Positions 9,961 through 18,491 of a stretch of 26,258 nucleotides of DNA are shown piece after piece. Position 1 is the first letter of the stretch. The number at the start of each line of letters is the position of its first letter. The DNA lies in the IMG/VR virus record IMGVR_UViG_3300025127_000229, positions 1 through 26,258 of that record; one strand, 5' to 3'. Made by a program: the position numbers and the translations under genes. Under the pieces are notes generated by a model. It was not told the DNA's origin. It was given only the letters and a program-made list of their open reading frames with translations, and searched no databases. This stretch comes from a virus.

Positions 9961-9989
9961 TTGACAAGGTAGCAATGATTGCTTATATG
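9961..9989 (+). promoter_or_regulatory. Promoter with perfect 13-bp dyad in its spacer (P2)
   Basis: TTGACA (9961-9966), 17-bp spacer, TATATG (9984-9989). The spacer contains the perfect palindrome AGCAATGATTGCT (9971-9983), placed to touch the -10. An A/T-rich stretch (about 9920-9960) precedes it, and the leader ACTAACAGAAAGCTAGGAGGG follows. It probably drives the gene run 10021-12775. A repressor on the dyad would block polymerase directly. Confidence 0.75.
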
Positions 9990-10020
9990 TAAGTTACTAA
10001 CAGAAAGCTAGGAGGGCAAA

Positions 10021-10245
10021 ATGGCTTTAACTTACGAAAAAATTTTTGATCAGTTACTCGATTTTACAGAGGGCATGGCTAAGTCTGGCGTAACGACTTT
10101 TGATTTGGCTAACGTAATGTCAAGGTTTGTGGTTGAGTTGTCTTATGACACTGCACCGAATACGCAACATGCAACGACATTGTTGCTTACAGCAATCACT
10201 GATCGCATGGAACGCGATATCACAGGGAGTGCAGATGATGAATAA
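10021..10245 (+). CDS. Hypothetical small helical protein
   Basis: The 74-residue product is not recognised; it appears as three helices, including FDQLLDFTEGMAKSG and HATTLLLTAITDRMERD. It is the first gene after promoter P2 and has a strong AGGAGG ribosome site. It overlaps the next gene by 11 bp, so the small genes up to 12775 are probably one transcript. Confidence 0.75.
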   Translation: MALTYEKIFDQLLDFTEGMAKSGVTTFDLANVMSRFVVELSYDTAPNTQHATTLLLTAITDRMERDITGSADDE

Positions 10246-10378
10246 CATGGAAAAGGTAAAGGAATTGGTTGATCTCATGTATTGGGATTATGACAGGATG
10301 TCATCATCTGGTCAGGAGACTCTTGATAAGCTGGCGGATGCAGTTGGCTTGCCTAAGGAGGGCGAGGAAGATGAGTGA
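10235..10378 (+). CDS. 47-residue hypothetical protein
   Basis: A short frame starts at ATG 10235 after AGGGAG and ends at TGA 10376-10378. The product begins MMNNMEKVKELVDLMYWDYD and is helical and acidic. It overlaps both neighbours (11 and 8 bp). A longer reading from an upstream GTG at 10127 would lie inside the previous gene and is unlikely. Function unknown. Confidence 0.6.
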   Translation: MMNNMEKVKELVDLMYWDYDRMSSSGQETLDKLADAVGLPKEGEEDE

Positions 10379-10664
10379 AGAAGGTAACATTATTTATACA
10401 TGCGAGGATCATGGGCTAGAGGCTTACAGAAAGATCAAGAATAATCCTGCTGTTCCCAAAACACATGTGTACGCATACTTCCCACCAGTCGAATTAGAAG
10501 ATGGCAGGAAGATCATGGAAAAGATGTGGATCAGGATTACCAAAGGCAATCGTAAAAGTGGTGAGGGCGTATTGGATAATGAGCCAGCGCACAATCACAA
10601 TTACAAATTGTATCAGGTGGTTTATTACGAAACTGATGAAGATGATATTACGAGGGCGTTATGA
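10371..10664 (+). CDS. Hypothetical protein, possibly DUF2314-like
   Basis: The 97-residue product contains MWIRITKGN (52-60) followed by GEGVLDNEPAH (64-74), which faintly resembles DUF2314-type domains (MWV...G.L.N.P). That match is tentative. ATG 10371 follows GGAGGGCGAGGA and overlaps the upstream stop region; the stop overlaps the next start (ATGA). It is probably part of the P2 transcript. Confidence 0.65.
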   Translation: MSEEGNIIYTCEDHGLEAYRKIKNNPAVPKTHVYAYFPPVELEDGRKIMEKMWIRITKGNRKSGEGVLDNEPAHNHNYKLYQVVYYETDEDDITRAL

Positions 10665-11005
10665 GTGCTGATGGCATGAGACGTAAGTGGGGTTGGTTCT
10701 ATTTTAATGTAATTGAACCAGAGCGCGTTAGGCTCGTTCAAGAGGCTGGCTTTGTTTTTACGCCAGTTTGGGGCGGCTCGTGTGACATTGATATTCTTGA
10801 GCAGGAAGTTCAAGAGAGCATTGAGGCTGTTCAAGAGCAGTTTTGCCGTGAGGGTATGATTTGGCAAGAGCCAAGGTATCGGGTGAATACTTTTGCTTCA
10901 AAGTTGCATGAATCGACTAATGGCAGAGTTGTTCGTGGCCGTAAGAGAAATAAAGACAGTGCCAATGCACTGGAGTCACATCTTAAAAGCAAGGGTGTAC
11001 ATTGA
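10661..11005 (+). CDS. Hypothetical protein with basic C-terminus
   Basis: The 114-residue product is not recognised. The N-terminal half (WGWFYFNVIEPERVRLVQEA and a FTPVWGGSCDIDI segment) appears alpha/beta; the middle is a Q/E-rich helix; the C-terminus is basic (RVVRGRKRNK, about 89-98) and could touch nucleic acid. It starts in an ATGA overlap and ends in a TGATG overlap. Confidence 0.7.
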   Translation: MSADGMRRKWGWFYFNVIEPERVRLVQEAGFVFTPVWGGSCDIDILEQEVQESIEAVQEQFCREGMIWQEPRYRVNTFASKLHESTNGRVVRGRKRNKDSANALESHLKSKGVH

Positions 11006-11202
11006 TGAAATTAAAACGAAGAATAACAGCCAAAGAATATAGCGACATGTTTAATGGGCGGCAAAGTAAATACAGAACAGATTTATATTGGCAATGTAAT
11101 TTGACAAAAGATTATTTCTTACGCTCAGAGTTCCACTCTGGCAATTTTATTCCTAAAAGGCAAACCCCTTTTATTCACACTACTGCTTATAAGGGCAAAT
11201 AA
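11005..11202 (+). CDS. 65-residue basic hypothetical protein
   Basis: The product begins MKLKRRITAKEYSDMFNGRQ and is rich in K, R, Y and F. The ATG overlaps the upstream TGA, and one base separates its stop from the methyltransferase start. Function is not recognised; immediate linkage to the methyltransferase is the only clue. Confidence 0.65.
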   Translation: MKLKRRITAKEYSDMFNGRQSKYRTDLYWQCNLTKDYFLRSEFHSGNFIPKRQTPFIHTTAYKGK

Positions 11203-11203
11203 A

Positions 11204-12433
11204 ATGGAGCATAATTTTGGTAATGTCGTCAGTTTGTTTGATGGCATGTCTTGCGCTCGTATAGCTTTGCAGAGGATGGGTATTGTTCCTAAACGATACT
11301 TTGCCAGCGAGATTGACAAGTATGCAATCACGGTTGCCAAAGCTAATTTTCCCGACACAATACATGTAGGCAATGTTCGTAACTTTGGTAATGTCGTCAG
11401 CTTGTTTGATGGCATGTCTTGCGCTCGTATCGCTTTGCAGAGAATGGGTATTGTTCCTAAACGATACTTTGCCAGCGAGATTGACAAGTATGCAATCACG
11501 GTTGCCAAAGCTAATTTTCCCGACACAATACATGTAGGCAATGTTCGTAACGTAATATGGCCTGAGATATTTGACGGTGAGCCGATTGATCTTTTGATCG
11601 GCGGTTCGCCATGTCAGGGTTTTTCATTTGCAGGTGGTCAGTTGGCGTTTGATGATCCGCGCAGCAAATTGTTTTTTGAATTTGTTCGTGTTCTAAAAGA
11701 GTGCAAGCCGAAGTATTTTCTGTTGGAAAACGTAAATATGAAGCAGGAGTTCCAAGACGTAATAAACGAACAATTAGGGTGTAGGCCCGTAGACATTAAC
11801 TCCAATATCGTTAGCGCACAGAACAGGCGCAGGCTGTATTGGACGAACATTCCAGTCAGGTCGTTGCCGGAAAACAAGCGTATATATCTTAGGGATGTGC
11901 TTGAAGATGGGTTTACAGACCGCGATAAGGCGCATTGTGTGGACGCTAATTACTTCAAGGGCGGTAATCTGAAGTCGTACTTTGAAAAGCACAGGCGGCA
12001 GTTGGTATTTGATTTTGCCGAAGAAGAAGAGGCAGAAGGAACAATGCTGGCTGGTCATGCTGATTTGAAGGGGCATGATTATAATAGGCGCGTATATCAC
12101 CCAGATGGCAAAGCACCAACGCTTGCTGCGGCTTCTGGTGGCAATCTTGAGCCGAAGATACTACAGATCGCTCGAGGTGCTAATAAAGGTGGAATCAGGG
12201 CAGAGGATGGCAAGGTTCCGTCAATGACAAGTTCATCATGGGAGCATAACAATCTTCTTGTTGATGTTGATGATTTAAAATGGCGCAAGCTTACACCAGT
12301 AGAGTGTGAGAGGTTGCAGACCGTACCAGATAATTACACAGCACATGTATCTGATACACAGCGTTACAGAATGCTCGGTAATGGATTTACCGTGGATGTT
12401 ATTTGTCACTTGCTAGGAGGTATGGACAGATGA
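11204..12433 (+). CDS. C5-cytosine DNA methyltransferase with duplicated N-terminus
   Basis: The 409-residue product has the C5-methyltransferase motifs: SAM-binding SLFDGMSCARIAL (motif I) and ASEIDKYAI (motif II), catalytic GGSPCQGFS (133-141, C137), LLENV (173-177), SAQNRRRLYW (204-213) and C-terminal LTPVECERLQ plus RMLGNGFT. It transfers methyl groups to cytosine, probably protecting phage DNA or marking it for timing. No partner restriction gene is visible. Motifs I-II occur twice: residues 5-60 and 61-116 are identical. Without one copy the length would be about 353 residues, normal for this family, so the second copy is unexpected. It ends overlapping the next ATG. Confidence 0.93.
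   Translation: MEHNFGNVVSLFDGMSCARIALQRMGIVPKRYFASEIDKYAITVAKANFPDTIHVGNVRNFGNVVSLFDGMSCARIALQRMGIVPKRYFASEIDKYAITVAKANFPDTIHVGNVRNVIWPEIFDGEPIDLLIGGSPCQGFSFAGGQLAFDDPRSKLFFEFVRVLKECKPKYFLLENVNMKQEFQDVINEQLGCRPVDINSNIVSAQNRRRLYWTNIPVRSLPENKRIYLRDVLEDGFTDRDKAHCVDANYFKGGNLKSYFEKHRRQLVFDFAEEEEAEGTMLAGHADLKGHDYNRRVYHPDGKAPTLAAASGGNLEPKILQIARGANKGGIRAEDGKVPSMTSSSWEHNNLLVDVDDLKWRKLTPVECERLQTVPDNYTAHVSDTQRYRMLGNGFTVDVICHLLGGMDR
11216..11551 (+). repeat. 168-bp in-frame tandem duplication in the methyltransferase gene
   Basis: Units 11216-11383 and 11384-11551 encode the same 56 residues (motifs I and II). I find three differences, all silent (AGT/AGC, ATA/ATC, AGG/AGA). Confidence 0.95.
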
Positions 12434-12612
12434 AAGAAGAAAAGGTTGTCAGCATTCCAAGGATTCCAACGATGGAGCAGTTAAAACGTGATTTGATGAT
12501 TCTGGAGATCAACCCGGAATATGATTCTATGGGTAGAATTGTTCGTAAAAAGAATCTGTCAGGAGTCGAAAGGACTATGGCTAAAAGCATTATGAGTAAA
12601 GACAATGAATGA
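12430..12612 (+). CDS. 60-residue hypothetical protein
   Basis: The product begins MKEEKVVSIPRIPTMEQLKR and is helical and charged. ATG 12430 follows AGGAGG at a 9-nt spacing and overlaps the methyltransferase stop. An alternative start at 12403 lies inside the methyltransferase gene and lacks a ribosome site. Not recognised. Confidence 0.7.
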   Translation: MKEEKVVSIPRIPTMEQLKRDLMILEINPEYDSMGRIVRKKNLSGVERTMAKSIMSKDNE

Positions 12613-12775
12613 AGAGTTGATGATTGCGTATGATCTAAAGCACCAGATTGAGTGCTTGCCGCAGGAATATAAGAGTTCCTCTGTCATTGATAATGTAACT
12701 ACAGAGCATACGATGATGGAAAGAATAGCCATGATAATCCATGTACTGGAGAGTCACGGCAAAGATGTCAGTTAA
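12605..12775 (+). CDS. 56-residue hypothetical protein
   Basis: The frame runs from ATG 12605 (overlapping the upstream gene by 8 bp) to TAA 12773-12775. The product begins MNEELMIAYDLKHQIECLPQ and ends in a helix (HTMMERIAMIIHVLESHGKD). It is the last gene before the repeat-rich gap and probably ends the P2 transcript. Not recognised. Confidence 0.6.
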   Translation: MNEELMIAYDLKHQIECLPQEYKSSSVIDNVTTEHTMMERIAMIIHVLESHGKDVS

Positions 12776-12796
12776 CTTGATATCGGTTAATATTTA

Positions 12797-13002
12797 GTTA
12801 CATGGTTACATGGTTACGGCATGTAACTAAAATCGCATGTAAGTAGGAAGTTATTGTAATTATTGGGTAAATCGGTTTAGTTACATGTGGTTACATTTGT
12901 GACATCGGAAGTTAATTGTGGGTTGTAAGTTGTTGAAAACAAACGTGGTTACATGGTTACATAAGGTTCCCTATATAAATATAGGTATAGGTATATGTAA
13001 CC
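12797..13002. repeat. GTTACAT iteron-like array upstream of terS
   Basis: GTTACAT occurs at 12797, 12805, 12880, 12890, 12948 and 12956 in direct orientation, several as back-to-back 8-mers (GTTACATG GTTACATG GTTACGGC). Inverted ATGTAAC copies lie at 12821-12827 and 12995-13001. The 257-bp gap has no gene. It could be the binding site of the small terminase (pac or cos region), a replication origin or an operator array for the next gene. Confidence 0.8.
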
Positions 13003-13012
13003 TATACCTATA
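12980..13012. repeat. 12-bp inverted repeat before terS
   Basis: TATAGGTATAGG (12980-12991) and CCTATACCTATA (13001-13012) form a perfect dyad around TATATGTAA. The loop holds an inverted GTTACAT copy. No T-run follows, so this is more likely a protein-binding dyad or transcript hairpin than a terminator. It ends 20 bp before the terS start codon. Confidence 0.8.
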
Positions 13013-13032
13013 CCGAAGCAGGAGAGAGCAGT

Positions 13033-13557
13033 ATGCCAAAGGTCGGTGAGGATCTTTCAGAGGATCAAAGACACGCAGGACAGCGTAGATTAAAACCAGT
13101 GCAGCAAAAGTTTCTGGACTTCTATTTGCATCGGGATATGACGCAGACAGAAGCGGCTAGACAGGCAGGGTATAAGAACCCGTCAGTGTCTGCTGTAAGG
13201 CTGTTGCGTAACCCAGTCGTAGCAGAACGATTGCAGGAGATGAGACTCGAAGCACAGGCCAAGTTCGGGGTCAGCGTAGACAAGTCTGTTCGGGATCTGA
13301 AGAAGCTACGAGATCAGGCTTGGGAAATGGGTAAGTTCAGTGAAGCTATTAGAGCTGAAGAGCTGAGATTGAAGGCATCGGGGCTACTTATTAACAAACA
13401 GCACGTTATCAAGGAGGACATCACCGCAGCAACTAAGGAGGATATTGCGAAGAAACTGGCCGAATATAAGCGTTTGGCTGAGTCGCGCATGAAGAATGTA
13501 ACACCAGATGTAGTGCAAATCGAGCATGAAGAGCTAGATATAGTTGAGGATAAGTAA
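13033..13557 (+). CDS. terS: Terminase small subunit (Terminase_2-like)
   Basis: The 174-residue product has the Terminase_2 signature in residues 20-71: LKPVQQKFLDFYLHRDMTQT, then AARQAGYKNPSVSAVRLLRN and PVVAERLQEMR, a helix-turn-helix that recognises the packaging start site. The central helices (about 72-150) would form the oligomer ring. ATG 13033 follows AGGAG. The GTTACAT array directly upstream is a natural candidate for its recognition site, as small terminases often bind near their own gene. The large subunit lies 7.5 kb downstream rather than next to it. Confidence 0.85.
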   Translation: MPKVGEDLSEDQRHAGQRRLKPVQQKFLDFYLHRDMTQTEAARQAGYKNPSVSAVRLLRNPVVAERLQEMRLEAQAKFGVSVDKSVRDLKKLRDQAWEMGKFSEAIRAEELRLKASGLLINKQHVIKEDITAATKEDIAKKLAEYKRLAESRMKNVTPDVVQIEHEELDIVEDK

Positions 13558-13930
13558 TGTTCGGGTTTTTCTGCGGGAAAATCTAGCGCGGGGGGATCGG
13601 GCTTCCTCCTCGGGCTTTTATAGAAATTGTTCGGGTTGTCGGGGTCAATAATACTGGCGTTTGTACCAAATTGTTCGGGTTATCGGGGTTCCAGGTGATC
13701 GGGACTCCAGTACCAGTATAATTGTTCGGGAACTGGGCTGCCGAGCCCGGGGCAGCTGCAGCCTGATCGGGGTGTAACCAGTACAATTGTTCGGGATCGG
13801 GCTTGACTGGGCTGCAGATCGGGGTCATCCTGAACTCTCCTCCCTGGAGAAAGGGGGTCCTGGCAGCCACTCATCTGCCAGGGCCTTCTCCGTAACCAGT
13901 ACAATTGTTCGCCAGTACGCGCAGCGCCCA
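13558..13930. repeat. GC-rich spacer with AATTGTTCGGG repeats (spacer 1)
   Basis: No gene is seen in this 483-bp gap. Copies of the repeat are at 13625-13637, 13669-13681, 13720-13730, 13785-13795 and 13903-13911; an incomplete copy (TGTTCGGGTT, 13558-13567) touches the terS stop. Three are extended on the left as CCAGTA(C/T)AATTGTTCG. TCGGG and CTGCAG-like words fill the spaces. Base composition is visibly GC-richer than the genes (about 58 percent G+C in 13561-13620 by hand count). Minus-strand open frames here are by-products of the repeats. Confidence 0.85.
13855..13886 (+). other. Strong hairpin in spacer 1
   Basis: CCTGGCAG (13859-13866) pairs with CTGCCAGG (13875-13882) around an 8-nt loop. 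A wobble and two or three further pairs extend the stem outward. No T-run follows directly. It may terminate terS transcription with help from Rho, or protect an RNA end. Confidence 0.6.
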
Positions 13931-13980
13931 GTTCCCTGGTCAAGTCTCAAAAAAAAATTAAAAAAAATGCATTTTATCTC

Positions 13981-14009
13981 TTGCAAGTTGTGCATTCATT
14001 GCTTATATT
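13981..14009 (+). promoter_or_regulatory. Cassette A promoter with spacer dyad (P3)
   Basis: TTGCAA (13981-13986), 17-bp spacer, TATATT (14004-14009). The spacer carries TGCATTCATTGCT (13991-14003), the same position as the P2 dyad. A long A-tract (about 13949-13967) upstream could serve as an UP element. The leader CACTAACAACGAATGGAGG follows. Confidence 0.75.
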
Positions 14010-14040
14010 AATATCACTAACAACGAATGGAGGCATTAAA

Positions 14041-14256
14041 ATGCACATTAAAGATATGTTGACCCAGATGGGGTTTAAAGTTGCGAACACAGGCGGCGGT
14101 TGCCAAGGTCTTGAAATGGTTTTGCCTAACGGCTTGTCCATTTTAGTAACAGATGGAGAGGCTGGCATTTCAGAAGACATCAATGCAAATCCAACTATTG
14201 TTTTTGAAAACAGAGAAACAGACACACACGTTGTCGTTGAAGGGAAGGTGGTGTGA
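14041..14256 (+). CDS. Hypothetical 71-residue protein, cassette A
   Basis: The product begins MHIKDMLTQMGFKVANTGGG and continues with short beta strands (LEMVLPNGLSILVTDGEAG, then HVVVEGKVV). It is not recognised. ATG 14041 follows TGGAGG. It is the first gene after promoter P3 and overlaps the next gene by one base (TGATG). Confidence 0.7.
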   Translation: MHIKDMLTQMGFKVANTGGGCQGLEMVLPNGLSILVTDGEAGISEDINANPTIVFENRETDTHVVVEGKVV

Positions 14257-14573
14257 TGGAACGCACAGACATTGAAGTTTTACAGAAGGCGTTTCCAAAA
14301 GGCTCAACGGCTTTCACTAATGTAGTACACGTTTCTAGATCAGGAATGTATAGACACATCTCAGTGCATAAGCCGCACATTGAAAAAGGCGAGGCTGTGA
14401 GTATGCAAAACTACAGCGCGTACATTGCCAGAGTTTTGGGACGTTCATTCAAGGCAAAGAATTACGCTGTTGGCGTTGGTGGATGCGGCATGGATATGGG
14501 TTTTGAACTTATTTACAACCTATCCGCCAAGTTATACGGCGATGGATACGCCATTAAACAGGAATGGATTTAG
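14256..14573 (+). CDS. Conserved phage protein of unknown function (HVSRSGM family)
   Basis: The 105-residue product has VVHVSRSGMYRHISV (23-37), VGGCGMDMGFELIYNLS (74-90) and GDGYAIKQEW (95-104). These blocks recur in many phage proteins I remember, always without known function. The conserved cysteine, histidine and DGY residues suggest a ligand or metal site, but no mechanism is established. ATG 14256 overlaps the upstream TGA; an in-frame GTG at 14253 is possible. It sits just before the cyclotransferase-like gene in the same transcript. Confidence 0.75.
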   Translation: MERTDIEVLQKAFPKGSTAFTNVVHVSRSGMYRHISVHKPHIEKGEAVSMQNYSAYIARVLGRSFKAKNYAVGVGGCGMDMGFELIYNLSAKLYGDGYAIKQEWI

Positions 14574-14581
14574 GAGGTGCG

Positions 14582-14992
14582 ATGATTTATTTTGCATATG
14601 GCTCAAATCTGAACAAGCGTCAGATGAGCGTCAGGTGTCCCAAGGCGAAAGCCTTGGGCGCTGGTTACTTAACAGGATGGCGGCTGGTCTTTCGGGGTGT
14701 GGCCGACATTGAAGAGAACCACACAGACCCAACGGTGATGTTACCAGTCGGGTTCTGGGAGATTACAGATGACTGCTTGCAGTCGCTGGACTTCTATGAG
14801 GGCTACCCTCGGCTTTATCGGAGAGTCAACATCAACGGGATGATGACCTACCGCATGAATAGTTCGGGGTATGCAGCGCCTCATGAGTCATACTTTGACG
14901 CAATCCGTCAGGGGTATCATGACTTCGGGCTTGATGAGTCGGAACTTTACCATGCCCAAGATTGGGCAGACGAGCTGGACGAGGTCATGTAA
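14582..14992 (+). CDS. Gamma-glutamylcyclotransferase-like protein (GGCT/AIG2 fold)
   Basis: The 136-residue product begins MIYFAYGSNLNKRQM, the classic YGSNL substrate loop, and keeps the catalytic glutamate in LDFYEGYPRLYRR (E73). Enzymes of this family release 5-oxoproline from gamma-glutamyl amines or peptides. ATG 14582 is chosen because AGGAGG lies 5 nt upstream; an earlier in-frame ATG (14564) overlaps the previous gene. A strong terminator follows at 15017. The coding sequence is rich in TCGGG words, like the spacers around it. Its likely partner is the amidoligase of cassette C, which makes the kind of bond this fold can cleave. Confidence 0.85.
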   Translation: MIYFAYGSNLNKRQMSVRCPKAKALGAGYLTGWRLVFRGVADIEENHTDPTVMLPVGFWEITDDCLQSLDFYEGYPRLYRRVNINGMMTYRMNSSGYAAPHESYFDAIRQGYHDFGLDESELYHAQDWADELDEVM

Positions 14993-14996
14993 CAAG

Positions 14997-15130
14997 AATT
15001 GTTCGGGTTGAATCGAGGGCTGCAGCGGGTGCTGCGGCCCATTTTTTTTGCCCGGGCCGTCCAGGTACTGGAAAAAACCCGTACAATTGTTCGTGTACTG
15101 GGTACTGGCGCTGCAGCCCAGTTCGTCTTC
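14997..15130. repeat. GC-rich spacer with AATTGTTCG repeats (spacer 2)
   Basis: Copies lie at 14997-15009 (AATTGTTCGGGTT, 4 bp after the cyclotransferase stop) and 15085-15093 (preceded by GTAC). ACTGG and CTGCAGCC words are shared with spacers 1 and 3. The 291-bp gap has no gene beyond a possible five-codon leader frame. Confidence 0.8.
15017..15049 (+). terminator. Intrinsic terminator of cassette A
   Basis: GGGCTGCAGC (15017-15026) pairs with GCTGCGGCCC (15031-15040), one G-T wobble, loop GGGT, then a run of eight T (15042-15049). It would end the transcript containing the cyclotransferase-like gene. Confidence 0.9.
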
Positions 15131-15167
15131 AGCTCGTAAAAAAAGTATCAAATAGTTCTTTTTGTTG

Positions 15168-15196
15168 TTGACAGGTGTGCAGTGATTGCTTAATGT
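15168..15196 (+). promoter_or_regulatory. Cassette B promoter with spacer dyad (P4)
   Basis: TTGACA (15168-15173), 17-bp spacer, TAATGT (15191-15196). The spacer ends with TGCAGTGATTGCT (15178-15190). Unlike the other cassettes, the ACTAACAACC leader lies about 65 nt downstream. The stretch between holds a well-placed ribosome site (GGGGAAG) and a five-codon frame encoding MTADQ (15220-15237). Confidence 0.75.
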
Positions 15197-15283
15197 ATAT
15201 ATACAGGGTAGGGGAAGCGATGACCGCCGACCAGTGATGCGAACAGCACCTCTGCCTTGTACTAACAACCTTTGGAGGGCAAA

Positions 15284-15487
15284 ATGACGGAGCGGGAAAT
15301 TAAAAACAGCTTGTCAATTATCTGGGATGCGTTGCATGATTACAGACAGAATTGTATTCCACAATATAACGATAACGATTTTACAAAAGATGAAGTATCG
15401 TATGATGAGCAGTGGGATGAGATCTGCGGAGCAATGGCAAATGTTACAGAGGAATTAGGTTTAGACAGTGGAGATGACAATGCGTAG
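15284..15487 (+). CDS. 67-residue acidic hypothetical protein, cassette B
   Basis: The product begins MTEREIKNSLSIIWDALHDY and is mostly helical and acidic, ending LGLDSGDDNA. ATG 15284 follows GGAGGGCAAA; an in-frame TTG at 15272 is less likely. It overlaps the following membrane-protein gene by 8 bp, so the two are likely made together. Not recognised. Confidence 0.7.
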   Translation: MTEREIKNSLSIIWDALHDYRQNCIPQYNDNDFTKDEVSYDEQWDEICGAMANVTEELGLDSGDDNA

Positions 15488-15650
15488 ATTTTGTAACTTT
15501 ATGACGGGAGTTTGCTTCCTCGGGGTGATCATGTTGGCAGCAATCGAGCCGCATGATGCACCAGCGTTCTATATTCACGCCGCCATGCTTACAATCCTAT
15601 CAGTCGGGATGGCTGTCTTCGGGATCACAGCTCGCAGCATTCGGGATTAA
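15480..15650 (+). CDS. Small two-helix membrane protein, cassette B
   Basis: The 56-residue product has two hydrophobic segments: CNFMTGVCFLGVIMLAAI (5-22) and a second, about 29-51, running from AFYIHAAMLTIL to FGITA. Basic residues at both ends (MRR and ARSIRD) predict both termini in the cytoplasm. ATG 15480 follows GGAG; GTG 15468 is an alternative. The gene is followed 21 bp later by a terminator. It could be a holin-like, superinfection-exclusion or signalling protein; no family is recognised. Confidence 0.65.
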   Translation: MRRFCNFMTGVCFLGVIMLAAIEPHDAPAFYIHAAMLTILSVGMAVFGITARSIRD

Positions 15651-15671
15651 CCAGAACAATTTCTCCAACTG

Positions 15672-15695
15672 CCCGGCTTCGGCCGGGTTTTTTTT
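15672..15695 (+). terminator. Intrinsic terminator of cassette B
   Basis: CCCGGC (15672-15677), loop TTCG, GCCGGG (15682-15687), then eight T (15688-15695). A textbook stem with a stable tetraloop. Confidence 0.93.
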
Positions 15696-15716
15696 CGCCC
15701 AGTCCCGGTGACTGGC

Positions 15717-15899
15717 GTACAATTGTTCGGGTTATTGCCAGTCGAGCCCAGGTCGGGCAGCGCAGCACCTGCCTTCATCCGGGTGAATCGGGAAATTGTT
15801 CGGGTTCTGGATCGGGATTCGAGGCAGCAGCTGTAGCTCGGGTTCGGGATTCGGGGTCGGGATCGGGCTTTCCCAGTAAAAAACCCGAACAATTGTTCG
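15717..15899. repeat. GC-rich spacer with AATTGTTCGGGTT repeats (spacer 3)
   Basis: Copies lie at 15721-15733, 15794-15806 and 15891-15899. The last joins an inverted copy (AACCCGAACAATT, 15882-15894) to make the 14-bp palindrome CGAACAATTGTTCG (15886-15899). A degenerate CCAGAACAATT touches the stop at 15651. TCGGG repeats densely at 15838-15867. The 395-bp gap also holds terminator B and promoter P5 and no gene that I can support. Confidence 0.85.
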
Positions 15900-15983
15900 T
15901 GACTGGCTGCCTAGGCCCTGGCCCGGCGCCCGGATTTTTTCAAAAAAAATGCTGCGTTTACGTCAAAAAACGCACAATTGCAC

Positions 15984-16012
15984 TTGTTTTATGTGCAATG
16001 AATGCTTATATT
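15984..16012 (+). promoter_or_regulatory. Cassette C promoter with spacer dyad (P5)
   Basis: TTGTTT (15984-15989), 17-bp spacer, TATATT (16007-16012). The spacer ends with TGCAATGAATGCT (15994-16006). The -35 is weaker than in the other cassettes. The leader GGACTACAACGAAACATGGAG follows. Confidence 0.7.
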
Positions 16013-16045
16013 TAAGGGACTACAACGAAACATGGAGATAAAAAA

Positions 16046-17230
16046 ATGACAACGATATTTAGAAGTGATGTATACCCTACATTTGGTTTTGAAAATGAAT
16101 GCGCCAATGGTGGCATATCTCGCGGTTGGTCACCTAGTCGCTGGCAGGATGAATTGAACGATGCCGGTTATAATTGGGTGAATGCAATTCATGATGGCAC
16201 GTCTGAGGTTGACGTAGAATTCATAATACCGCCGTTTTCACCATGTGATGCCGCAAAAAATGACATTGCCGAATTATTCGCATGGATAGAAAGCAAAGGC
16301 GCAATAGTTGGACGCCCTAAACTAGGCGGTCATGTTCATATGGGCAATCGCCTAGTACATACCAATATTAGTAAATCTGATTTTTGGCGCGCATCTAAAG
16401 CGGAATACGCAACGCATAGACGCTATTATAACCCTGCCGCATCCATGACCGCGCCAATGCCGTTGTCGTTGGTTAAGGATGTTATTTGCCGCTATGCCGA
16501 GCATAGAACAGATATAGAAGCAATCTTGCCATTATCACGGCGCAATGGCCGCAATAGCATGATACAAAACATAGATCATGTCGCGCCTAATGGCCGCGAT
16601 TATTCCGCGTTTATGCAATCTGAGAATGCTAGTCGCATGAGCGGAATATTGGGCGGTAAATTTCGCGTTGTTAATCTTGAAACATGGACACGCCTAAACA
16701 CTATTGAATTTCGTCAGCATCAATCAACATTGGATGTTCAAAAGCTTTGGAATTGGTGCTATCTAATTGCAAATATGTTTCAGCATTCAGATTGGCATCG
16801 CATGGATTACAATGCGCCGTCATCAATAATAATAGATACGCCCGAAAATCCATTTAGACGTGGATCAAGAATAGGCGTTTTGTATACGGCCATGCGTGTT
16901 GATGGTGGCGCGACTACTCGTGATCTAATGAATGCGACAGGTTGGAGTGCTGATACAATACGCGCTCGTGTCTCTGAAATACGCAATCGTGACGACATAG
17001 GACAAGGTGGCGTGTTATGCCATACGCAACAAGCATACGGCAATTCATATGGTACTAGCCAAGGTGAACATGATCTGAATGGTTATGAGGTATTGCGTAC
17101 TGTTGAGACACAAGTGCAAGGTGGCGTTGGTTTACTGCCCGAAAACAGACGCGGTATGACAAGCATATGGGCGGGACTATCTGATCAATTGTTTGAATAC
17201 TTTAATGCAAGGCGCGATCAATTGAGATAG
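16046..17230 (+). CDS. Amidoligase (glutamine-synthetase-like fold) with C-terminal HTH-like segment
   Basis: The 394-residue product shows the Amidoligase_2 pattern: FGFENE (13-18), DGTSEVDVEFIIPP (50-63), GGHVHMG (94-100) and NTIEFRQHQSTLD (218-230). The acidic and histidine residues would bind magnesium-ATP. The family forms amide bonds between carboxyl and amino groups, on peptides, proteins or metabolites; the substrate here is unknown. Residues 285-313 (DGGATTRDLMNATGWSADTI then RARVSEIRN) look like a helix-turn-helix of the DUF3489 kind. Arginine is mostly CGC, unlike the CGT-rich neighbouring genes, which suggests separate acquisition. It has its own promoter and terminator. Confidence 0.82.
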   Translation: MTTIFRSDVYPTFGFENECANGGISRGWSPSRWQDELNDAGYNWVNAIHDGTSEVDVEFIIPPFSPCDAAKNDIAELFAWIESKGAIVGRPKLGGHVHMGNRLVHTNISKSDFWRASKAEYATHRRYYNPAASMTAPMPLSLVKDVICRYAEHRTDIEAILPLSRRNGRNSMIQNIDHVAPNGRDYSAFMQSENASRMSGILGGKFRVVNLETWTRLNTIEFRQHQSTLDVQKLWNWCYLIANMFQHSDWHRMDYNAPSSIIIDTPENPFRRGSRIGVLYTAMRVDGGATTRDLMNATGWSADTIRARVSEIRNRDDIGQGGVLCHTQQAYGNSYGTSQGEHDLNGYEVLRTVETQVQGGVGLLPENRRGMTSIWAGLSDQLFEYFNARRDQLR

Positions 17231-17252
17231 TCCCACAAAAAAACAAAACTAA

Positions 17253-17278
17253 GGCGGGCAATGCCCGCCTATTTTTTT
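17253..17278 (+). terminator. Intrinsic terminator of cassette C
   Basis: GGCGGGC (17253-17259), loop AAT, GCCCGCC (17263-17269), then TA and seven T (17272-17278). It ends the amidoligase transcript. Confidence 0.93.
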
Positions 17279-17280
17279 GC

Positions 17281-17431
17281 GTACAATTTGACAAGGTACC
17301 CTGCAGCCGAATGCAAAAAATCCAATCGGGACGCGGGCGGGTATGGTACCCCCCGACAAAAAAAACTTGACAGCGCGACACGTTGCGCCAAGTTCCCCAC
17401 AAACAACCCCCAGTAAAAATAACAACTGGGG
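17281..17431. other. Structured spacer 4 with degenerate repeat remnant
   Basis: GTACAATT (17281-17288) recalls the repeat of the other spacers but lacks GTTCG. GGTACC occurs twice. AACTTG/CAAGTT (17364-17369, 17389-17394) with inner GCGC pairs forms one hairpin, and CCCCAGT/ACTGGGG (17408-17414, 17425-17431) forms a second. No gene is seen in the 287-bp gap. Confidence 0.6.
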
Positions 17432-17456
17432 TCAAAAAAATTTTATATAAAAATCA

Positions 17457-17486
17457 TTGACAGTTTAAGCAACCATTGCCATATTA
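17457..17486 (+). promoter_or_regulatory. Cassette D promoter with degenerate spacer dyad (P6)
   Basis: TTGACA (17457-17462), 17- or 18-bp spacer, CATATT or ATATTA. AGCAACCATTGCC (17468-17480) matches the dyad of P2-P5 with several changes and sits one base further from the -35. A/T-rich sequence precedes it, and CAGGAGGGC follows as ribosome site. Confidence 0.65.
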
Positions 17487-17517: not shown

Positions 17518-17886
17518 ATGAAGAACGAAGATTTATGGAAACATTGCACCAGATTAAATCGTGAGCAGCGTGATGAACTGGGCGTTTTCACCAAGAAAGA
17601 GATGTTGGACTACTGTGTTTTGAACCGCAATCTTCTTGCGAGTGATGTTGAAAAGATAATGTGCAACGATCCTCTGTTTCCTGTGGTAACGGATCCTAGT
17701 GTTGACAGTCCAGATATTCCGTTAAGCGCACAGCGTGGCGGCAAAAAATCAAAGAATTTTTTCTTTCGCCAGGATTTGGATATTTATTTTGGCGGCAGTT
17801 ATGGAATTATAAAGAGTTTTCTTGAGAAGCGTAGCGAAGAGATTTCTTACAAGAAAAAGCGTGGAAGACCAAAGAAGGAGCGATAA
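17518..17886 (+). CDS. AT-hook protein, cassette D
   Basis: The 122-residue product ends with KKKRGRPKKER (112-122), an AT-hook (RGRP core) that binds the minor groove of A/T-rich DNA. The rest is not recognised; it includes a charged helix (REQRDELGVFTKKEMLDYC, 15-33) and an FFFRQDLDIYFGG segment (81-93). ATG 17518 follows AGGAGGGCAAAGGT. It heads the transcript that includes the XRE regulator. The A/T-rich tracts upstream of each cassette promoter are possible targets. Confidence 0.75.
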   Translation: MKNEDLWKHCTRLNREQRDELGVFTKKEMLDYCVLNRNLLASDVEKIMCNDPLFPVVTDPSVDSPDIPLSAQRGGKKSKNFFFRQDLDIYFGGSYGIIKSFLEKRSEEISYKKKRGRPKKER

Positions 17887-17887
17887 A

Positions 17888-18136
17888 ATGAAACAATACA
17901 GACTTAAAATTGGTGGTGATCCGATTGATTTTGTTGCGGAGAACCCAGAGGGTTTCTTGGAGGCTTGGCGTTCTGTCAATCTTCGAGCGAGTTCTGATGA
18001 CAAAGAGTGGCTAAGACAGGCTGCGATGTCTGCATGCGACTGGGCTGGAGGCCCGATCCGTTATGACAATGCAACTGTGTTTGCACAGGACATGATGAGC
18101 AAGGGCATGCTGGAGGAGATTAATGCAGAAGGCTAA
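17888..18136 (+). CDS. 82-residue hypothetical protein, cassette D
   Basis: The product begins MKQYRLKIGGDPIDFVAENP and continues with helices (GFLEAWRSVNLRAS, DDKEWLRQAAMSACDWAGG). It is not recognised. ATG 17888 follows AAGGAG and lies one base after the upstream stop. It overlaps the XRE gene by 14 bp. Confidence 0.7.
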   Translation: MKQYRLKIGGDPIDFVAENPEGFLEAWRSVNLRASSDDKEWLRQAAMSACDWAGGPIRYDNATVFAQDMMSKGMLEEINAEG

Positions 18137-18491
18137 ATCATCTTACAGCATGATGAAGGGCAAGGATCTGGAAGAGATGCGGAATAAATCTGGCAAGAGT
18201 CAGGCATCTTTTGCAGATGCCTTGGGTGTAAGCTTGCGTATGTACAGCTATTACGAGTGCGACAAGAAGCCGATACCCAAGACAGTTGAGCTTTCTTCTC
18301 GTTACATTTTGTCAGAAAAGCAGGGATCTACTGGTTACAAGCCTTCATCTGATTTGACAGACTTTGATATAGATCGCATTAGCAGACTAAGATATGCGTT
18401 GCGAGGCGTTGAGGGTTTTGATGATCGTTCAGACAAGATTGTAAGGCAGTCAGAGCAGGAAATTGAATACCTGTTGTCAAAGTTTGACTAA
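18123..18491 (+). CDS. XRE-family helix-turn-helix regulator
   Basis: The 122-residue product has a Cro/C1-type HTH from about 14 to 60: KDLEEMRNKSGKSQASFADA, then LGVSLRMYSYYECDKKPIP. The C-terminal half is helical and may dimerise. ATG 18123 follows GGAGGAG. It is the best visible candidate for the protein that binds the 13-bp dyads in P2-P6, and P6 would then be autoregulated. That is inference; no binding evidence exists. It is the last gene of cassette D and no clear terminator follows. Confidence 0.8.
   Translation: MQKAKSSYSMMKGKDLEEMRNKSGKSQASFADALGVSLRMYSYYECDKKPIPKTVELSSRYILSEKQGSTGYKPSSDLTDFDIDRISRLRYALRGVEGFDDRSDKIVRQSEQEIEYLLSKFD

Follow-up and report, generated by a model that had tools for sequence, protein, structure and literature searches.

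Operators of the lambda, 434 and P22 type pair a dimeric HTH_3 protein with a short dyad that overlaps the core promoter, and the C1 repressor of phage P1 governs a regulon of dispersed operators. Among Aca-type autorepressors, Aca1 and Aca2 bind repeats that overlap the -10 and -35 elements (PMC8434428), and, in ten Aca families, the members tested repress cognate promoters whose core contains an inverted repeat (PMC9410906). Sites of the L5 type are described as asymmetric, genome-wide and stopping elongation (PMC9283540). In archaeal viruses, a strong early promoter signature is a shared regulatory sequence that marks early accessory genes, Aca-like regulators among them, and has served in the discovery of anti-defence genes (PMC11065993). 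We have identified a related arrangement in a viral sequence fragment of 26,258 bases, the IMG/VR virus record IMGVR_UViG_3300025127_000229, referred to over its full length as the window. Five predicted promoters of this phage, P2 to P6, carry the dyad GCAATnATTGC in the spacer between the -35 and -10 elements. We consider it probable that this dyad serves as operator for an XRE protein encoded by the phage itself; as a dimer, XRE would lie in the spacer and block RNA polymerase at the promoters of accessory cassettes. A full-text literature search for this architecture found no description of it.

All five promoters lie on the forward strand and have a -35/-10 spacer of 17 bp. P2 (9961-9989), upstream of a run of methyltransferase genes, consists of -35 TTGACA (9961-9966), dyad core GCAATGATTGC (9972-9982) and -10 TATATG (9984-9989); its perfect dyad is kept in the close relatives L006, L172 and L189. 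The corresponding elements are TTGCAA (13981-13986), GCATTCATTGC (13992-14002) and TATATT (14004-14009) in P3 (13981-14009), and TTGACA (15168-15173), GCAGTGATTGC (15179-15189) and TAATGT (15191-15196) in P4 (15168-15196). P5 (15984-16012), upstream of an amidoligase gene, has TTGTTT (15984-15989), GCAATGAATGC (15995-16005) and TATATT (16007-16012). P6 (17457-17485) heads the operon that ends in the XRE gene and has TTGACA (17457-17462), GCAACCATTGC (17469-17479) and CATATT (17480-17485). TTGACA is confined to P2, P4 and P6.

A preliminary description of the window had placed a shared 13-bp dyad in these spacers, and the five 13-mers were recovered at 9971-9983, 13991-14003, 15178-15190, 15994-16006 and 17468-17480. 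The dyad and its location in the spacer are real, but the conserved core is 11 bp long (GCAATnATTGC), with a loose outer W/Y pair. The distance from the end of the pentamer at the TTGAC position to GCA is identical in P2 to P5, as had been described; it measures 6 bp in these four and 7 bp in P6. Leaders that had been reported to match do so in part: ACTAACAAC is exact in P3 and P4 only, the P4 copy lying about 60 nt further downstream, after a structured leader, and P2 (ACTAACAG), P5 (ACTACAAC) and P6 (ACTTACTG) differ. The ribosome-binding sequence GGAGG is present in P2, P3, P4 and P6, but is GGAG in P5.

Counted by itself with one mismatch allowed, the 13-mer is not significant in the window (13 found, 11.7 expected). 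When an A/T-rich upstream tract, a -35 and a -10 had to accompany the dyad, the window gave six forward hits, five of which are P2 to P6, and one reverse hit, whereas 200 dinucleotide shuffles averaged 1.42 hits on the two strands together and never exceeded 5; once promoter context is counted, chance is thus ruled out as the source of the dyad. The promoter P1, at 553, combines -35 and -10 elements with an ACTAAC leader yet has no dyad (best match with four mismatches); the dyad is therefore not common to all promoters of this phage.

Relatives were collected through the XRE protein without use of the motif. An alignment of the protein fetched 80 loci, which contain XRE by construction; the 64 with at least 3.5 kb upstream were analysed, and all perfect 5+1+5 dyads were counted in them without a prior motif. 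GCAATnATTGC was the commonest, occurring in 57 of the 64 loci, and the next dyad reached 15. These loci hold 180 dyad promoters, compared with 0.6 in first-order Markov surrogates, with one to five found per locus and at least one in 64/64. The dyads are oriented strongly with the genes (180 sense sites, few antisense). Retention of the -35 and -10 with loss of the dyad in relatives, the outcome that the preliminary description had named as refuting a shared dyad, was not seen for cassette promoters, where every locus keeps at least one dyad even after the downstream gene has been replaced. The comparison provides good support for a single predicted trans-acting factor at the cassette promoters. 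The suggestion that the same factor also controls the methyltransferase run is weaker, since more distant relatives (L106, L107, L180, L226 and L250) keep only the left half-dyad, GCAATCACTTC, at that promoter position.

The dyad behaves as an element of its own within promoters that are predicted from their sequence and are of the sigma-70 type. Of 74 unique sites, 60 have their -35 and -10 separated by 17 bp and the others by 18 bp, while the dyad begins 5 bp (21 sites), 6 bp (13), 7 bp (39) or 8 bp (one) after TTGAC. Because the dyad slides by 0-3 bp while the -35/-10 spacing holds, it is separate from the -10. Such a variable phase is unexpected for an extended -10 and is easier to reconcile with a repressor that blocks than with an activator.

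A scan of viral contigs with the pattern TTGACN{6,7}GCAATNATTGCTWWW gave at least 119 contigs, and 138 sites were read, often two per contig about 400-600 bp apart. They fall into two main spacing classes. In the 7-bp class (107 sites), GC mostly stands immediately ahead of TATATA; in the 6-bp class (31 sites), there is mostly an additional T. Among the loci listed, about 95 share one TerS family, 84 a gamma-glutamyl cyclotransferase and 69 the amidoligase, which indicates that most come from one phage group. In a 56-kb relative (contig G001), dyad sites are confined to the interval from primase to portal. The P3 sequence hardly differs between the window, L006, L056 and L100, yet the genes behind it begin differently, which shows cassettes being exchanged behind a conserved promoter and predicted operator. 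An initial loose pattern, WGCANNNATTGCTTATATT, was discarded, as most of its 93 hits were due to chance; a -35 within two mismatches was present at 9 of 92 sites, and only five contigs from these nine sites were true relatives.

The candidate reader of the dyad is an XRE/HTH_3 regulator of 122 amino acids (18123-18491, forward strand; Pfam HTH_3, E 2.9e-5), which is also a putative autorepressor. It adjoins the portal gene in all 31 motif-found loci that reach the portal. The preliminary description had proposed two binders, this protein and an AT-hook protein encoded in the same operon; the comparisons favor XRE, while the AT-hook protein was rejected as a general factor because only 2 of the 49 longer XRE-anchored, dyad-bearing loci encode it. 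Contig G002 keeps both dyad promoters and XRE without the amidoligase, the AT-hook protein or the small open reading frame (ORF) of cluster c7. Conversely, the full genomes of HTVC027P, HTVC023P, 023Pt_psg01 and DSL-LC04, which are relatives by TerL, have neither XRE nor the dyad. No named phage was found with this XRE or with the portal-position protein of the window, and none of the dyad-bearing genomes compared is certified complete.

One XRE clade differs in both protein and site. Where the recognition helix is HRMWNHYE rather than HRMYCYYE, 9 of 10 unique sites carry T at position 2 or A at position 10, compared with 1 of 63 sites in the other main clades (Fisher p 1e-9). Two of the sites carry both changes and are fully symmetric (GTAATCATTAC, of the GTAATnATTAC type). 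In genomes of this clade, sites at different places are changed at mirror positions with the -35 and -10 unchanged, as expected if one trans-acting dimer had changed its specificity. Two unrelated cellular XRE genes, L263 and L297, from metagenome-assembled genomes of Tenericutes and Clostridium, carry GCAATnATTGC in their own promoter spacers; both are among the 74 hits of the cellular genome scan described below. This lead, drawn from a small number of cases, favors the view that some XRE proteins may read this dyad. A search of the genome order around L297 for cellular XRE-dyad pairs gave one further likely case (L416), and the rest appeared chance-like. One of the two cellular genes is fused to a nucleotidyltransferase-like part.

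The AlphaFold (AF2) model of XRE has a mean predicted local distance difference test (pLDDT) score of 78, with helix-turn-helix (HTH) blocks at about 91-93; the C-terminal helical part is modelled with less certainty. Among solved structures, the nearest are Aca10, Aca2, SO3848, NE0471 and Aca1, matched over the HTH domain only (model residues 5-69), with structural Z scores of 9.7 to 8.7 for Aca10, Aca2 and Aca1; families not listed are not thereby excluded. An Aca2 profile matched XRE weakly (E 0.0058). As with Aca-type autorepressors, XRE is a small phage HTH protein, an inverted repeat lies inside near-consensus core promoters (P2 to P6 and 64/64 loci) that XRE would control, and the dyad promoters drive small accessory genes, as in acr-aca operons. 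Predicted autoregulation adds to the likeness, as the XRE operon itself carries the dyad (P6): in 39 of the 64 loci a dyad promoter precedes XRE by no more than 1 kb, a distance that is often 282-294 bp, with one small gene intervening, and is 654 bp in the window. Unlike the single acr-aca operon, several separate cassette promoters occur in each genome (1-5 per locus), and XRE is encoded last, directly before the portal gene.

The other systems introduced above are more distant. Many copies of one site oriented with transcription recall the L5-type repressor with its stoperators as well as P1 C1, but the dyads here, unlike L5-type sites, are symmetric, located in promoter spacers and restricted to the primase-portal interval. 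An HTH_3 protein with a short dyad overlapping the core promoter recalls the lambda, 434 and P22 operators. Unlike those, each promoter here has a single operator, and no cooperative operator triplets and no sign of a lysogenic switch were seen in the window; among the G001 proteins covered by an incomplete scan, no integrase was seen. A shared regulatory sequence marking accessory genes is also found with the archaeal-virus signature, but the promoters there are archaeal and some of the genes were tested, whereas the cassette genes described here are known from sequence alone and, unlike those of acr-aca operons, have no shown anti-CRISPR function. We judge that the best description is a putative Aca-like repressor controlling several dispersed, swappable cassettes.

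In the proposed mechanism, an XRE dimer would bind the dyad in the -35/-10 spacer and block RNA polymerase at promoters that appear strong and of the sigma-70 type, with near-consensus -35 and -10 elements, an A/T-rich upstream tract and a strong ribosome-binding site. Expression of the accessory cassettes would start from these promoters, as would that of the methyltransferase run in this subclade. XRE would itself be expressed from the dyad promoter at the head of its operon, which is P6 in the window. Most dyads at XRE operons are imperfect (GCAATCTTTGC, GCAATCGTTGC, GCAACCATTGC), and their distance from TTGAC is 5 bp in most loci; with a less perfect site at its own promoter, XRE would shut off the cassettes first and itself later, producing an early burst followed by shut-off. 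We infer repression from the strength of the promoters, the position of the site in the spacer, the variable phase and the imperfect site at the regulator's own operon. Separate timing of the TerS-TerL region is plausible by analogy with HTVC027P, in which gp33 and gp34, located in this interval, form their own expression cluster with a peak at 6-9 h (PMC12753301); HTVC027P is without this XRE.

Several points weigh against XRE as the repressor that reads the dyad. The Foldseek E-values for Aca proteins are weak (0.02-0.2) and the match covers only the HTH domain, and 25 of the 64 loci yielded no dyad promoter within 1 kb of XRE. The mismatch limits applied in selecting operator sites inflate the conservation at each position, although the sliding of the dyad is not caused by that choice. 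The HRMWNHYE link is at the level of a clade and is not phylogenetically independent; other clade-specific genes or a different host could in principle explain it. TerS, finally, co-occurs almost as widely as XRE, in 47 of the 49 longer XRE-anchored loci, and the amidoligase is equally frequent (47/49). TerS proteins bind DNA, and the dyad might be bound by TerS, by the DUF3489 end of the amidoligase or by the AT-hook protein. We hold this to be highly improbable, given the scarcity of the AT-hook protein (2/49), the retention of dyad promoters in G002 without an amidoligase, and the annotated TerS genes of HTVC023P and HTVC027P, which have no dyad. Recognition by RNA polymerase itself, with the dyad as an extended -10 or as a signal for a phage-specific polymerase or sigma factor and no operator at all, is the least probable of the alternatives. 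The right half of the 7-bp class does end in TGC directly before TATATA and so resembles an extended -10, but the dyad slides by up to 3 bp relative to the -35 and -10 with its sequence unchanged, both halves are symmetrically conserved, P1 and most of the genome are without it, and the change in the HRMWNHYE clade affects positions 2 and 10 symmetrically.

Two further alternatives concern the origin of the factor and the sign of its effect. The dyad could be the site of a host transcription factor, borrowed by the phages to time or switch on their cassettes. The comparison covered phage-encoded factors, and differences in the site between clades could reflect different hosts. We regard this as unlikely, because the 74 hits obtained from 257 Gb of bacterial and archaeal genomes are single and scattered, mostly fall apparently in coding sequence and show no obviously enriched taxon, compared with at least 119 viral contigs that often have two sites each; relatives infecting other hosts, moreover, are without the site. 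Activation of the cassette promoters by XRE would fit the binding and co-occurrence evidence equally, as this is silent on the sign of regulation. It is nonetheless slightly less likely still, as the site is located between the -35 and -10 rather than upstream of them, its phase shifts by up to 3 bp relative to the core promoter, the -35, -10 and upstream tract already look strong, and the nearest structural relatives of known function are repressors (PMC8434428, PMC9410906).

The window has a GC content of 45%, and its TerL is 55-62% identical to those of the Pelagibacter phages HTVC027P and HTVC023P, phage 023Pt_psg01 and phage DSL-LC04. Gene order runs from recombination and replication genes through the methyltransferase run, TerS, the accessory cassettes and the small operon ending in XRE to a large portal-position protein and TerL. 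The portal-position protein (837 amino acids) is assigned as portal from its position and had no match in PHROG or Pfam. All genes given here are on the forward strand. Within the P2 run, a C5 cytosine methyltransferase (11204-12433; Pfam DNA_methylase, E 6.7e-50) holds a 168-bp direct tandem duplication at 11212-11547, in frame and 98% identical, which is either real or an assembly artefact. The cassettes encode a gamma-glutamyl cyclotransferase-like protein (14564-14992; Pfam GGACT, E 4e-7), an amidoligase-like protein with a C-terminal DUF3489 domain (16046-17230; Pfam Amidoligase_2, E 2.3e-6; DUF3489, E 1e-4) and unassigned ORFs. They are trailed by strong terminator-like hairpins at 15017-15040, 15671-15688 and 17252-17270, and therefore look like separate promoter-gene-terminator units. 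The P6 operon begins with the AT-hook-like protein (17518-17886; C-terminal KKKRGRPKKER; no Pfam or PHROG match), followed by the small conserved c7 ORF (17888-18136) between P6 and XRE.

Behind P4 lies a structured 5' leader RNA (15202-15261, forward strand) with a covarying outer stem and the invariant core AGCGATGACCGCCGACCAGTGATGCGAACAGC. In a comparison of the window, L006, L226, L350 and L417-L437, 32 cells of the outer stem were changed on both sides, compared with 8.7 in shuffles (0/500) and at most 8 when the stem was slid. An Rfam search of the leaders gave no match. The core pattern is present in 32 viral contigs, where 17 of 33 copies follow a dyad promoter and the others lie behind different promoters in a second group of viruses. 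Two more recurrent leaders behind dyad promoters (L144, L185, L149, L166), GCCGGTGAG...CTCACTGGC and AAGCCAAAAGTATAACGCC...GTGGC, look foldable. A 9-mer, CGAACAATT/AATTGTTCG, occurs 17 times in the window against 0.19 expected, in the intergenic spacers of 13625-15899 and at six places in genes; there are 17 copies in G001, 8 in G003 and none in the examined stretches of four named relatives. Its palindromic form, GAACAATTGTTC, is found in 56 of the 64 XRE-anchored loci.

The dyad and XRE form a predicted regulator-operator pair for an undescribed marine phage group, and one that is open to test. The change of recognition helix from HRMYCYYE to HRMWNHYE with the change of site from GCAAT to GTAAT would be a natural change of specificity, checkable by a simple laboratory assay. 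We tentatively suggest, as a possibility on the doubtful side of even, that the dyad marks a counter-defence island, in which swappable cassettes of mainly anti-host or anti-defence function would be expressed in an early burst and then undergo an Aca-like shut-off. If so, a short operator pattern would serve as bait for new anti-defence genes in uncultured marine phages. The operator may also help to catalogue genes of unknown function, probably early ones, in phages that are not yet cultivable.

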